Origin: an uncultured Fidelibacterota bacterium | GTDB lineage: Bacteria; Fidelibacterota; Marinisomatia; Marinisomatales; TCS55 | Direction of reading: 5' to 3' | Assembly (NCBI GenBank): GCA_913041075.1 | Contig: CAJWGZ010000002.1 | Span: 1 to 39,634 of the forward strand | Length of the DNA stretch: 39,634 nucleotides | In this document: positions 20,953 through 31,445 of the stretch, piece after piece | Layout of the letters: the number at the start of each line of letters is the position of its first letter | Numbering within the stretch: position 1 is the first letter of the stretch | The notes under the pieces: model-generated | Told to the model about the DNA's origin: nothing | Seen by the model: the letters and a program-made list of their open reading frames with translations, nothing else | The model's database searches: none | Translations under genes and position numbers: made by a program

Positions 20953-22233
20953 TTAATTAAGGTCAGCTATGGTCCCCTTACTAATCGTATAGCGAACCTT
21001 TCCTTTTAGCTTTTCCCCAATAAAGGGTGTGTTACGGGATTTGGAATAGATATTTTGTTCTTTGTATATCCATTCTTGAGCAGGATCGAGAATCGTCAGT
21101 TCAGCAGCACAGCCTATTTTAAATAGATCCTCTTCAAAGCCCATGACGCGCCTCGGGTTTACAGTTAATAATTTCAATAATTCTTTCAGCGGCATGTCCA
21201 AAACTTTATTCACAGCACCAAAACAGCTTTCTAAACCGATCATACCAAACGGTGCTGATTCAAAAGTAGCTTCTTTTTCATCTATTGTGTGGGGTGCATG
21301 ATCTGTGGCAATACAATCGAAAGTGCCATCCTTTACCGCTTTGATTAATTCCTTACGATCATCCTCAGTGCGAATCGGTGGTGCAACTTTAAAGTTTGTA
21401 TTGTATTCTAAAAGTGCTTGATCATTAAAGAATAAATGGTGCGGTGTCACTTCTGCTGTAATATTTGGATTTAATTTTTTCATTCTGCGGATGTTCGCAG
21501 CTCCACCGGCAGAAGATACATGGGGTACATGAAGTTTTGCCTGAATCATGTTCGCCAATTCAAGATCCCGTTGAATCATTATTGCCTCTGCCAGGGACGG
21601 ATTGCCGGCTAAACCGAGGCGTGTGGAAATCTCTCCTTCATGCATTAGACCATTATTGCGTAAACATTCATCTTCCGCATGATTAATAACCGGTTTATCA
21701 AACATAGAAGTGTATTCCAAAGCCAACCGCATAACCTGGGCATCAGATATAGGCAAACCATCGTCACTTAAGGCGACAGCCCCCTCGGAAATGATTCCTT
21801 GAACCTCAGTTAATTCTTGACCTTTTTGTCCTTTTGTTACCGCTCCAATGGGGTGAATATGCACTGGACATTCTTCTGCCTTTTCAACAATAAAACGTAT
21901 TGATTCAGGTGTATCTAAAGGAGGTGACGTATTGGGCATTACACACACACGCGTAAAACCACCTGCTAATGCTGCTCGAGAACCAGTTTGCAATGTTTCC
22001 TTGTCTTCACGTCCCGGTTCACGGAAGTGGACATGTACATCACAAAATCCATGGGTGATTACAAGGCCGGAACAATCGATCTTGGTCTCACCTTTCGCAC
22101 CACCAGTAGAACCAACCGATTTAATTTTATTTCGCTCAATTACAACATTACCCTTCTTAGACCTTCCAGATAACGGATCCAGAATTGTACCCCCTTGCAG
22201 CACAAGTTTCTTTGGTAGTTTTTTCAAATTCAT
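20953..22233 (-). CDS. pyrC: Dihydroorotase
   Basis: HGFCDVHVHFREPGREDKETL; CIATDHAPHTIDEK. Confidence 0.94.
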   Translation of the reverse strand: MNLKKLPKKLVLQGGTILDPLSGRSKKGNVVIERNKIKSVGSTGGAKGETKIDCSGLVITHGFCDVHVHFREPGREDKETLQTGSRAALAGGFTRVCVMPNTSPPLDTPESIRFIVEKAEECPVHIHPIGAVTKGQKGQELTEVQGIISEGAVALSDDGLPISDAQVMRLALEYTSMFDKPVINHAEDECLRNNGLMHEGEISTRLGLAGNPSLAEAIMIQRDLELANMIQAKLHVPHVSSAGGAANIRRMKKLNPNITAEVTPHHLFFNDQALLEYNTNFKVAPPIRTEDDRKELIKAVKDGTFDCIATDHAPHTIDEKEATFESAPFGMIGLESCFGAVNKVLDMPLKELLKLLTVNPRRVMGFEEDLFKIGCAAELTILDPAQEWIYKEQNIYSKSRNTPFIGEKLKGKVRYTISKGTIADLN

Positions 22234-22240
22234 TTATTAC

Positions 22241-23167
22241 TCAATTATTTTCTGGTTTTCCGCCTAGCAACAAATATAAAATGGCCATACGGGACGCAAC
22301 TCCATTGAGAACCTGATCCAGAATTATTGCTTCTTTACCATCTGCAACAGAACTATCGATTTCAATACCGCGATTCATTGGACCAGGATGCATGATCACG
22401 ATCTCTTTTTTATGTTTTTTCAAGCGTTCTGAAGTAATACCAAATAGGTTACGGTATTCACGCACTGAAGGAAATAACCCGCGATCCATACGTTCCAGTT
22501 GGATCCGCAACACATTAATGGCATCAGCCCAGTCTAAAACTTCATCAAGATCATGGGTTACTCGAACACCGAGGCTGTCGATGTGGGGTGGAATTAAAGT
22601 AGTTGGCCCACAAAGTATAACCTCTGCACCTAACTTTTTCAATCCATAGATATTGCTCCGCGCCACTCGACTGTACATTATATCTCCGATAATTCCGATC
22701 CTTAGACCTTTCACTTTCCCAAAACGTTCCTGAAGACTGGTCATATCCAAAATAGCTTGTGTAGGATGTTCATGGGTACCATCTCCAGCATTAATTACCA
22801 CCGCATCGACATATTTTGTCAAATGTAATGAAGCACCGGGATCTGGGTGGCGCATAACGACAGCATCAATTTTCATCGCCTCGATATTTTGAACCGTATC
22901 TTTGAAACTTTCACCCTTTTTCAAACTGCTCGAGGATGCCGAGAAATTCACTGTATCAGCGCTAAGGCGTTTTTGAGCCAATTCAAAACTGATTCGTGTG
23001 CGTGTGGAATTCTCAAAAAATAGATTTACAATCGTTTTCCCTTGCAGGGATGGCACTTTCTTGATCGGTCGATCAAGTACCTCTCGAAAGCTGAAAGCTG
23101 TATCAATAATACTAACTATATCTTCAGCTGGGTAATGTTCAAGTCCTAGAAGGTGTTTTTCCTGCAT
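22241..23167 (-). CDS. pyrB: Aspartate carbamoyltransferase catalytic subunit
   Basis: FFENSTRTRISFELA; HPTQAILDM; HPGPMNRGIEI. Confidence 0.96.
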   Translation of the reverse strand: MQEKHLLGLEHYPAEDIVSIIDTAFSFREVLDRPIKKVPSLQGKTIVNLFFENSTRTRISFELAQKRLSADTVNFSASSSSLKKGESFKDTVQNIEAMKIDAVVMRHPDPGASLHLTKYVDAVVINAGDGTHEHPTQAILDMTSLQERFGKVKGLRIGIIGDIMYSRVARSNIYGLKKLGAEVILCGPTTLIPPHIDSLGVRVTHDLDEVLDWADAINVLRIQLERMDRGLFPSVREYRNLFGITSERLKKHKKEIVIMHPGPMNRGIEIDSSVADGKEAIILDQVLNGVASRMAILYLLLGGKPENN

Positions 23168-23170
23168 TGT

Positions 23171-23722
23171 TTATTTCGCCTGATCGTATTTCAAGAGCAG
23201 CACGGCATCTTTATTATCCACTTCTTTTAATCGAACAGCTACATGTTCGCCCTCATGGGTAGGAATATTCTTTCCAACAAAATCTGCTCTAATAGGCATT
23301 TCCCTGTGTCCTCTATCCACCAATACAGCCAACTGAATGGCCTTTGGTCGTCCGAATGCATTTAATGCATCTATAGCTGCTCGGATTGTCCTGCCGGTAA
23401 AAAGAACGTCATCTACCAAAACAACAATTTTATCATCTATGGTAAAGGGGATATCCGTGCCCTTTACTTGAGGCACCACTAATCGATCCCGGAAGTCATC
23501 ACGGTGAAAGGTAATATCCAGTGAGCCTAAGACTATCTCAGTACCAGAAAATTCGGAAATTTGGGAATGTATTCTTTTAGATAGCGGTTCACCGCGCGTT
23601 TGAATCCCGATCAGCGCCAAATTATCTGGGTTATTGTTTCGTTCCAGAATCTCATGGCTCAATCTGGCGATGGTCCTGCTTATGGCAGTTGCATCCAGTA
23701 ATATGGTTTGTTTTTTTGTCAT
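23171..23722 (-). CDS. pyrR: PyrR: pyr operon regulator / uracil phosphoribosyltransferase
   Basis: LIGIQTRGEPLSKRI; VVLVDDVLFTGRTIRAAIDAL PRPP loop; first gene before pyrB-pyrC. Confidence 0.95.
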   Translation of the reverse strand: MTKKQTILLDATAISRTIARLSHEILERNNNPDNLALIGIQTRGEPLSKRIHSQISEFSGTEIVLGSLDITFHRDDFRDRLVVPQVKGTDIPFTIDDKIVVLVDDVLFTGRTIRAAIDALNAFGRPKAIQLAVLVDRGHREMPIRADFVGKNIPTHEGEHVAVRLKEVDNKDAVLLLKYDQAK

Positions 23723-23740: not shown

Positions 23741-23842
23741 AAAAAACCCCTGGGGGGCAGCATTTCTAGCGCTTTCCAGCGCTCTGCACGACCAGAGGCC
23801 TCATTACTGCCCTTTTTGCTATCTCTGTAGCTATTTAAAGGG
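23741..23842 (-). promoter_or_regulatory. PyrR-type transcription attenuator in the pyrR leader
   Basis: Minus-strand RNA: anti-antiterminator CCCUUUAAAUAGCUACAGAGAUAGCAAAAAGGG (23842..23810) with CAGAGA hexaloop; antiterminator GGGCAG (23812..23807)/CUGCCC (23760..23755); terminator GCCUCUGG (23799..23792)/CCAGGGGU (23753..23746) followed by a T-run. Confidence 0.82.
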
Positions 23843-23857
23843 TCAAAAATCACGGCC

Positions 23858-23886
23858 ATATTACACTAGGGAACAGTATCTGCCAA
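23858..23886 (-). promoter_or_regulatory. Candidate promoter for pyrR-pyrB-pyrC (TTGGCA-17-TAATAT)
   Basis: TTGGCA at 23886..23881, 17-nt spacer, TAATAT at 23863..23858, just upstream of the attenuator. Confidence 0.6.
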
Positions 23887-23906: not shown

Positions 23907-24851
23907 TCATTGTTTATTAAAGCCCGTGACAATGTGGTCTGCAATCTTATCCGGTGCTATTCCAATATCAATGGTAAGATCAATATTTTCTTGTCTAAAC
24001 CATTGTAATTGCCGTCGGGCATATTGACAGGTTCGCAATATAATTTTTGCTTCGAGTTCTTCTTTATTCAATTTACCATCAAGAAAAGCGGCGATTTGTC
24101 GATACCCAATGGAATCCATCGGGTGCATGGCAATAGGATCATTTCCTTTACGCAGCATTTTTGTTTCTTCGATCCAACCACTATTGAGCATCTTGGCAGT
24201 TCGTTTTGCTATACGTTTATCTAATTCCTTCCTATCAATAGTAAGTAAAACCGTGAAAAGATTTAATGTCGGTGTACCAAATTTTTCCTGTCTGTTGAAA
24301 TGTTCTGATGGCGGTTTGCCCGTTACTGTATAGATCTCTAACGCTCTGATCAGCCTTTTTTTATTATTTGGATGGACTTTTACTGCATACTCTGGGTCCA
24401 ATTCCTGCAGTCGGTTTAGTAATCCATCCGGACCAGTTTCTTCATATTCCTGAATAAGTTTTTCTCTTACATCTAGATCGGTCTCGCTCTCAGAAAATAT
24501 GCCCTTGGTGATCGCTCGATAATATAATCCTGCGCCACCACACATAATGGGTTCTTTTCCCCTTTCAGAAATATCCTTAACCAGATTTAAGACTAATTTT
24601 GCGTATTTCCCAGCTGAGATAGGTGAATCTGGGTCTTTTACGCCGATGAGATGATGCGGTGCTGCTGCCAGTTCTTCAATAGTAGGTTGTGCCGTTCCAA
24701 CGGCCATACCCTTGTATATTTGCCGTGAATCAAGGCCAATGATCTCACCATTTACTTTGTTTGCCACATCAATGGCAACGGTCGTTTTTCCAATCGCTGT
24801 AGGGCCTACAATAGCCAGAACAGGTTTAGGATTGGAGCGCTTATTATCCAT
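23907..24851 (-). CDS. miaA: tRNA dimethylallyltransferase
   Basis: AIVGPTAIGKTTVAIDVA; GLDSRQIYKGMAVGTAQP; GGAGLYYRAI. Confidence 0.95.
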   Translation of the reverse strand: MDNKRSNPKPVLAIVGPTAIGKTTVAIDVANKVNGEIIGLDSRQIYKGMAVGTAQPTIEELAAAPHHLIGVKDPDSPISAGKYAKLVLNLVKDISERGKEPIMCGGAGLYYRAITKGIFSESETDLDVREKLIQEYEETGPDGLLNRLQELDPEYAVKVHPNNKKRLIRALEIYTVTGKPPSEHFNRQEKFGTPTLNLFTVLLTIDRKELDKRIAKRTAKMLNSGWIEETKMLRKGNDPIAMHPMDSIGYRQIAAFLDGKLNKEELEAKIILRTCQYARRQLQWFRQENIDLTIDIGIAPDKIADHIVTGFNKQ

Positions 24852-30690: not shown

Positions 30691-31445
30691 GTTTGGTTTA
30701 CATGTATAGCTTCAGCAAATTTTTTCAACATGTCTTCATTATTATTTTCTTCAATTATAGTCCCGGTGACCACAAAACTAGCTCCAGCTTCAACTTTTTC
30801 GCGGGCAACTTCCGGCTTGCGAATTCCACCACCAACGATCAAGGGGATATCCACATGTTCAACTACTTCTTTAATCAATTCATTTGGCACTGCCTGTTTT
30901 GCGCCGCTGCCGGCTTCAAGATATATTAATTTTTTTCCTAGATATTGGGCCGCAAGTGCATGGGCTATTGAAATATCCGGTTTATCCATAGGAATAGGTG
31001 CCGTACCACTCATAAACTGTACTGCAGAGTCACTGCCCCCATCCAGCAATAAATACCCAGTTGGTATAACCTCAATACCTAGGTCTTTTACGATGGGTGC
31101 AGCAATAACCTGTTCACCGATCAAATAATGGGGATTCCTTCCCGAAATAATGGACATGAACAGAATCGCATCATAATGGCTGTTTAGTTGACTAATACCA
31201 CCTGGAAAAAATATCACAGGAATTTCAGCCAGAGACCTAATTTGAGCAACCCGTTCACTGCAACGACCATCCATCATTAGACTACCACCAACGAATATTG
31301 CGTCTACACCAGAATTGTTGATCTTTTTGACCTTGTCTGCTAAACCATTTTCACTTTTTCTATCAGGGTCAATAAGTACAATATACCCGGCGCCCTTCTT
31401 TTTTCGAACGGATAATAAATGGTTATAGACTTTTGAATTCATCAT
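30687..31445 (-). CDS. Geranylgeranylglyceryl phosphate synthase (PcrB/GGGPS family)
   Basis: YIVLIDPDRK; VDAIFVGGSLM; LYLEAGSGA-type LIYLEAGSGAKQAV; PLIVGGGIRKPEVA. Confidence 0.88.
   Translation of the reverse strand: MMNSKVYNHLLSVRKKKGAGYIVLIDPDRKSENGLADKVKKINNSGVDAIFVGGSLMMDGRCSERVAQIRSLAEIPVIFFPGGISQLNSHYDAILFMSIISGRNPHYLIGEQVIAAPIVKDLGIEVIPTGYLLLDGGSDSAVQFMSGTAPIPMDKPDISIAHALAAQYLGKKLIYLEAGSGAKQAVPNELIKEVVEHVDIPLIVGGGIRKPEVAREKVEAGASFVVTGTIIEENNNEDMLKKFAEAIHVNQT

Follow-up and report, generated by a model that had tools for sequence, protein, structure and literature searches.

The leader of the pyrR-pyrB-pyrC genes in an uncultured marine bacterium holds three RNA helices that exclude one another through shared or crossing pairs, which raises the question of whether a PyrR-dependent attenuator of the Bacillus type operates in a Gram-negative of the FCB group. 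The window, i.e. the whole stretch of 39,634 nucleotides that was analysed, is one contig in a MAG of Ca. Neomarinimicrobiota (FCB) (assembly of 1.38 Mb, 72% complete). An earlier reading made from the letters alone (the sequence-only reading) had guessed an FCB-type host, correctly, as the closest named PyrR record (97% identity) belongs to an uncultured Candidatus Marinimicrobia MAG. The cognate PyrR is encoded directly downstream of the leader, where both a curated HMM and PyrR homologues of known structure (e.g. 1a3c, E=1e-55) identify it, and both the gene order and the identity of PyrR fit the attenuator reading. The same-strand upstream neighbour, miaA, is outside the switch and sets the upstream boundary of the leader, and the element lies, as originally described, between promoter-like hexamers and HMM-named pyr genes (Table 1). 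Sequence analysis of this leader and its homologues argues that the element is very probably a PyrR-dependent transcription attenuator of pyrR-pyrB-pyrC.

Table 1 Features of the pyr leader and its neighbouring genes in the window
Feature	Position	Strand	Basis or remark
pyrC, dihydroorotase	20953..22233	-	TIGR00857 above cut-off; gap to pyrB 7 nt
pyrB, aspartate carbamoyltransferase	22241..23167	-	NCBIfam NF002032 above cut-off; gap to pyrR 3 nt
pyrR, bifunctional pyr operon regulator / uracil phosphoribosyltransferase	23171..23722	-	NCBIfam NF003549, 244 bits against a cut-off of 138
Intrinsic terminator U-run, 6 U	23741..23746	-	Sequence
Terminator 3′ arm CCAGGGGUUUU	23743..23753	-	Pairs with GAGGCCUCUGG, 11 bp
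Antiterminator 3′ strand UGCUGCCC	23755..23762	-	Pairs with GGGCAGUA, 8 bp
Terminator 5′ arm GAGGCCUCUGG	23792..23802	-	Fold, shuffles and covariation
Antiterminator 5′ strand GGGCAGUA	23805..23812	-	GGG 23812-23810 common to the binding-loop lower stem
PyrR-binding-loop hairpin (anti-antiterminator)	23810..23842	-	MFE fold, held-out covariance model, covariation; strands CCCUUU (23842-23837), AAA + UAGCUA (23836-23828), CAGAGA (23827-23822), UAGCAA (23821-23816), AAAGGG (23815-23810)
Hexaloop CAGAGA (CNGNGA), A-U closed	23822..23827	-	Sequence; kept across relatives
Promoter-like -10 hexamer TAATAT	23858..23863	-	Ends 13 nt before the segment starting GACCC
Promoter-like -35 hexamer TTGGCA	23881..23886	-	17-nt spacer to -10
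miaA, same-strand upstream neighbour	23907..24851	-	TIGR00174 above cut-off

The binding-loop-like hairpin proposed from sequence (CCCUUU-AAAUA-GCUA-CAGAGA-UAGC-AA-AAAGGG) is present at that place within the unconstrained MFE fold. It is composed of a lower stem (CCCUUU/AAAGGG), a 5′ purine bulge (AAA) and an upper stem (UAGCUA/UAGCAA) with one A.A mismatch, the purine-rich internal bulge and the paired lower stem together giving CCUUU-AAA...AAAGG. The hexaloop fits the CNGNGA core, as had been pointed out, and its C, G and GA are kept in relatives. Simulated windows contain, by chance, an average of 0.12 hexaloop hairpins of this geometry. Another CNGNGA hexaloop hairpin, similar in geometry, occurs at 31035 of the minus strand; it gave no covariance-model match and was taken as a chance occurrence.

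Both competing helices proved longer than first read. The antiterminator, described as GGGCAG pairing with CUGCCC, is present and reuses the GGG of the hairpin, but it extends to 8 bp, not 6, and a match of this quality was equalled in 0 of 200 shuffles. The terminator pairing, given as GCCUCUGG with CCAGGGGU followed by a T-run, is likewise present and crosses the antiterminator pairs, but its helix is 11 bp long; the intrinsic terminator upstream of the pyr genes is GAGGCCUCUGG/CCAGGGGUUUU plus U6. The antiterminator and terminator have no base in common in the window, but their pairs cross (the antiterminator 3′ strand ends 1 base before the terminator 3′ arm, and the 5′ strands are 2 bases apart), and forming both together would require a strained pseudoknot. 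In most relatives, the two helices have 1-2 bases in common.

Left unconstrained, the leader folds into binding loop plus terminator at -39.6 kcal/mol (z -2.98), and 0 of 200 shuffles were equally stable. Along the growing transcript, for which all energies are thermodynamic values, the antiterminator is the MFE structure when the transcript ends just after the antiterminator 3′ strand (-28.0 to -28.8 kcal/mol; forcing the binding loop gives -27.0 kcal/mol), placing it ahead of the binding loop by 1.0-1.8 kcal/mol. Once the terminator 3′ arm has been made, binding loop plus terminator reaches -39.8 kcal/mol against -34.9 kcal/mol, a margin of 4.9. An alternative-structure analysis had been suggested with the original reading, and this order of stabilities along the nascent transcript is the one expected for an attenuator. 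Attenuation needs an early decision between nearly equal folds, which protein binding could swing, and then a strong terminator, and these energies describe both.

That PyrR binds here, what nucleotide it responds to and in which direction it regulates are all inferred from Bacillus (PMC7430163). On that analogy, transcription would begin just upstream of the hairpin and, when uridine nucleotides are high, PyrR with UMP/UTP would hold the binding-loop hairpin, which would keep its GGG (23812-23810) from the antiterminator, so that the terminator would form and transcription would stop ahead of pyrR. At low levels of uridine nucleotides, GGGCAGUA of the nascent RNA would pair with UGCUGCCC, and this pairing, which crosses the terminator, would allow the polymerase to read through.

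The promoter-like hexamers are kept in place across the genus, whose diverged species have TTGTTA-17-TATTAT at this site, and therefore a transcription start upstream of the hairpin is plausible. Among relatives, the best promoter-like site lies 12-14 nt before the hairpin segment in 29 of 79 leaders, compared with 7 when shuffled. Promoter scores in the relatives show no excess (7.92 against 7.95 shuffled), and the promoter is the weak point of the reading because the clustering is in position only, not in score. With miaA directly upstream on the same strand, the terminator might merely end the miaA transcript, in which case the pyrR promoter would lie downstream of the terminator and the hairpin would be incidental. 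We regard this as extremely unlikely, given that the binding loop and antiterminator, which an ordinary terminator does not need, are conserved and covary, that the promoter-like hexamers stand upstream of the hairpin at a distance conserved in the genus and clustered in relatives, and that the start codon follows the U-run by only ~20 nt.

Translational control by PyrR is known in other bacteria. Action of PyrR on translation through a block of the ribosome site, as in some non-Firmicutes, would accommodate the members of group g23 and the several members of families f16/f17 that have the hairpin without an obvious U-run terminator, but is highly improbable for the window's genus, in which a strong terminator with a 6-U run is accompanied by a covarying antiterminator and the hairpin is ~90 nt from the start codon. 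Control of termination is the preferred reading.

PyrR was found in 114 of 150 relatives and leaders were extracted for 107 loci, at 79 of which a CNGNGA hexaloop hairpin of the expected geometry precedes pyrR. A single gapless alignment of all leaders (A1) was dropped; class A only was used for the covariance model and the pair counts because A1 mixed two classes that are 1 nt apart on the 3′ side. In the binding-loop alignment with the genus included, 93.1% of cells are paired, a score reached by 0 of 500 shuffles, and there are 31 double-changed cells compared with 8.9 in shuffled alignments; sliding the partner by one column reduces pairing to 54-58%. Changes on both sides were seen in 6 of 11 binding-loop pairs (upper stem 5/6, lower stem 1/5), the lower stem being mostly invariant and 97.6% paired, with T6, T7, T8, A9 and A10 invariant in the A2/A3 alignments. 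Relative to the usual C-G, the A-U closing pair of the window's genus is one such double change. In a four-strand composite of the antiterminator and terminator from 36 leaders, both-side changes were present in 12 of 15 pairs (0 of 500 shuffles), a test that leans toward structure because the register of ~10 rows was set by pairing. An independent single-leader shuffle test found the antiterminator in most leaders of family f1. The sequence-only reading had proposed to look for compensatory changes in homologous leaders, and to count their lack against itself; such changes were found in all three helices.

A search with the Rfam PyrR model (RF00515), which had also been proposed, found nothing in the window or in the whole genome, and a control search with the same model matched Thermus. 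A run of the model on five relatives likewise stayed under its threshold. Across the 150 relatives the gathering score of 54 bits was never reached (best 52.9), and sub-threshold scores occur at many pyrR leaders, several just under the cut-off, so in this phylum the family is barely visible to the public model, which does not pick up the window's genus. We take this as a limit of the model and not as a refutation because a lineage-specific, held-out model does match. For this covariance model (R1) the training set was 22 distinct class-A hairpins from other genera, with the window's genus excluded, and its sole significant match in the whole 1.38-Mb genome was at 23844-23807 (40.7 bits, E=1.1e-7; next match, E=1.27). 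In relatives, R1 nearly always gives one match per genome, at the pyrR leader, and the one relative with two matches has two pyrR copies.

In a second phylum, sampled around the Melioribacteraceae MAG G245, R1 matched 29 of 297 genomes and all 20 of the matches fetched were directly upstream of pyrR, so the distribution in the FCB group is broader than one MAG. R1 also finds pyrR-leader binding loops in MAGs of Calditrichia, Chloroflexota and Actinobacteria/Thermoleophilia. Many leaders from these groups and from the Melioribacteraceae-side phylum carry a terminator; they have the same binding loop, with terminator sequences and antiterminator partners of their own. The g22 group has reduced genomes of 0.7-1.0 Mb that are up to 98% complete; in them there was no PyrR match, and no binding loop was found except for one weak match.

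A real attenuator could also be read by another protein, or directly by a nucleotide, and not by PyrR, a possibility to which the RF00515 threshold being reached nowhere in the phylum sample and the deviating closing pair in the window's genus lend something. We consider it very unlikely, as the element lies directly upstream of pyrR at 20 of 20 second-phylum matches and at nearly all Neomarinimicrobiota leaders matched, it retains two marks of the published PyrR site, the CNGNGA loop and the purine bulge UAA(A) (PMC7430163), and the g22 genomes, which are without pyrR, are also without the element, the one weak match aside.

The published consensus of the PyrR site is ARUCCAGAGAGGYU, and the top of the upper stem is described as crucial for PyrR binding (PMC7430163). 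In the window the top of this stem is U-A/A-U in place of U-G/C-G and the published ARUC/GGYU is not matched; as had been noted from the sequence, GCUA/UAGC differs from the consensus yet stays paired, and it was seen in 5 of 5 genus members with the site. The three helices and their position upstream of pyrR are shared with other Neomarinimicrobiota leaders, unlike the closing pair, which is C-G in most of them. Many f1 species (class B) have a 1-nt bulge in the upper stem and 1 nt less on the 3′ side, and in the sister families f16 and f17 a pentaloop, CGNGA, replaces the hexaloop on a covarying stem.

The pentaloop was seen ~60-145 nt upstream of pyrR at loci L083, L088, L090, L094, L095, L096, L100, L101, L102 and L106, and that of L102 and L106 is also A-U closed, apparently independently of the window's genus. 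Group g23 (L071, L073, L077, L078, L079) has a hexaloop that is apparently A.G closed (GUA-CAGAGA-GGC or close), and a U-run terminator is missing from several of its leaders, which would point to control at translation. In family f18 (L091, L093, L098, L099, L103, L104, L105), the region ~90-130 nt upstream of pyrR yielded no hairpin of the PyrR type; these leaders have instead a conserved stretch like CTAANTT...CCTTGAAGTGAG and then a terminator before pyrR, and their PyrR differs at otherwise conserved positions (e.g. 146, 152 and 153 in ancestral-PyrR numbering). The f18 leaders possibly use a different recognition element. At the g6/g7 loci L003, L006, L008-L010, L014, L016, L021 and L061, the terminator loop contains UGGAACGG, the complement of CCGUUCCA in the 5′ arm of the binding loop, and L061 changes both sides (GGAAUGG / CCAUUCC). 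The two strands may form a second antiterminator helix, which the window lacks.

The closing pair of the loop was also compared with a helix-1 residue of PyrR, which we take to be Thr18 of B. subtilis. Among proteins with a C-G-closed hexaloop, 54 of 71 have Thr at this position; where a hexaloop is closed by A-U or A.G, 10 of 10 have Ile, Ala or Val, a pattern that may reflect descent alone because these ten proteins represent two clades only. The idea that the Neomarinimicrobiota recognition element diversified (A-U, A.G, pentaloop) and that PyrR changed alongside at the helix-1 residue is a tentative one, to which we give well under an even chance on these alignments; if true, the phylum has natural, partly non-interchangeable PyrR/RNA pairs.

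The element resembles the B. subtilis pyr attenuators (RF00515; PMC7430163) in its CNGNGA hexaloop, two-part stem and 5′ purine bulge, in the A-B (binding loop), B-C (antiterminator) and terminator logic, and in having pyrR immediately downstream. It differs from them in the A-U top pair and the GCUA/UAGC stem, in the A.A mismatch lower in the upper stem, in the antiterminator 3′ strand lying between the terminator arms, beside the 3′ arm, in its FCB Gram-negative host and the blindness of RF00515 to the site, and in number, as one site was found in a 72% complete genome compared with three in B. subtilis. A literature search, which covered few subscription journals, found nothing linking Marinimicrobia with PyrR. 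A 2013 survey placed the PyrR motif, present in several lineages, in a 'moderate distribution' class (PMC3766115). The expectation that an FCB host would broaden the range of the mechanism is borne out in that the distribution is wider than the usual Firmicutes picture, but presence outside the Firmicutes was itself already known (the Thermus control; PMC3766115).

The PyrR attenuator logic first read from the leader has survived the held-out model, covariation, the energy order and the identity of PyrR, and these comparisons give good support to the element as a divergent version of a switch already known in kind, one that Neomarinimicrobiota use widely. A PyrR switch like that of Bacillus is thereby placed in a phylum of uncultured marine FCB bacteria and, as judged by R1, in another FCB phylum. 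RF00515 scores were sub-threshold in the tested leaders of both, so PyrR control probably extends further than current counts show. Variants with a changed closing pair or a pentaloop occur naturally, and they offer an evolutionary way to test which RNA features PyrR recognizes, features hitherto known mainly from B. subtilis mutants.
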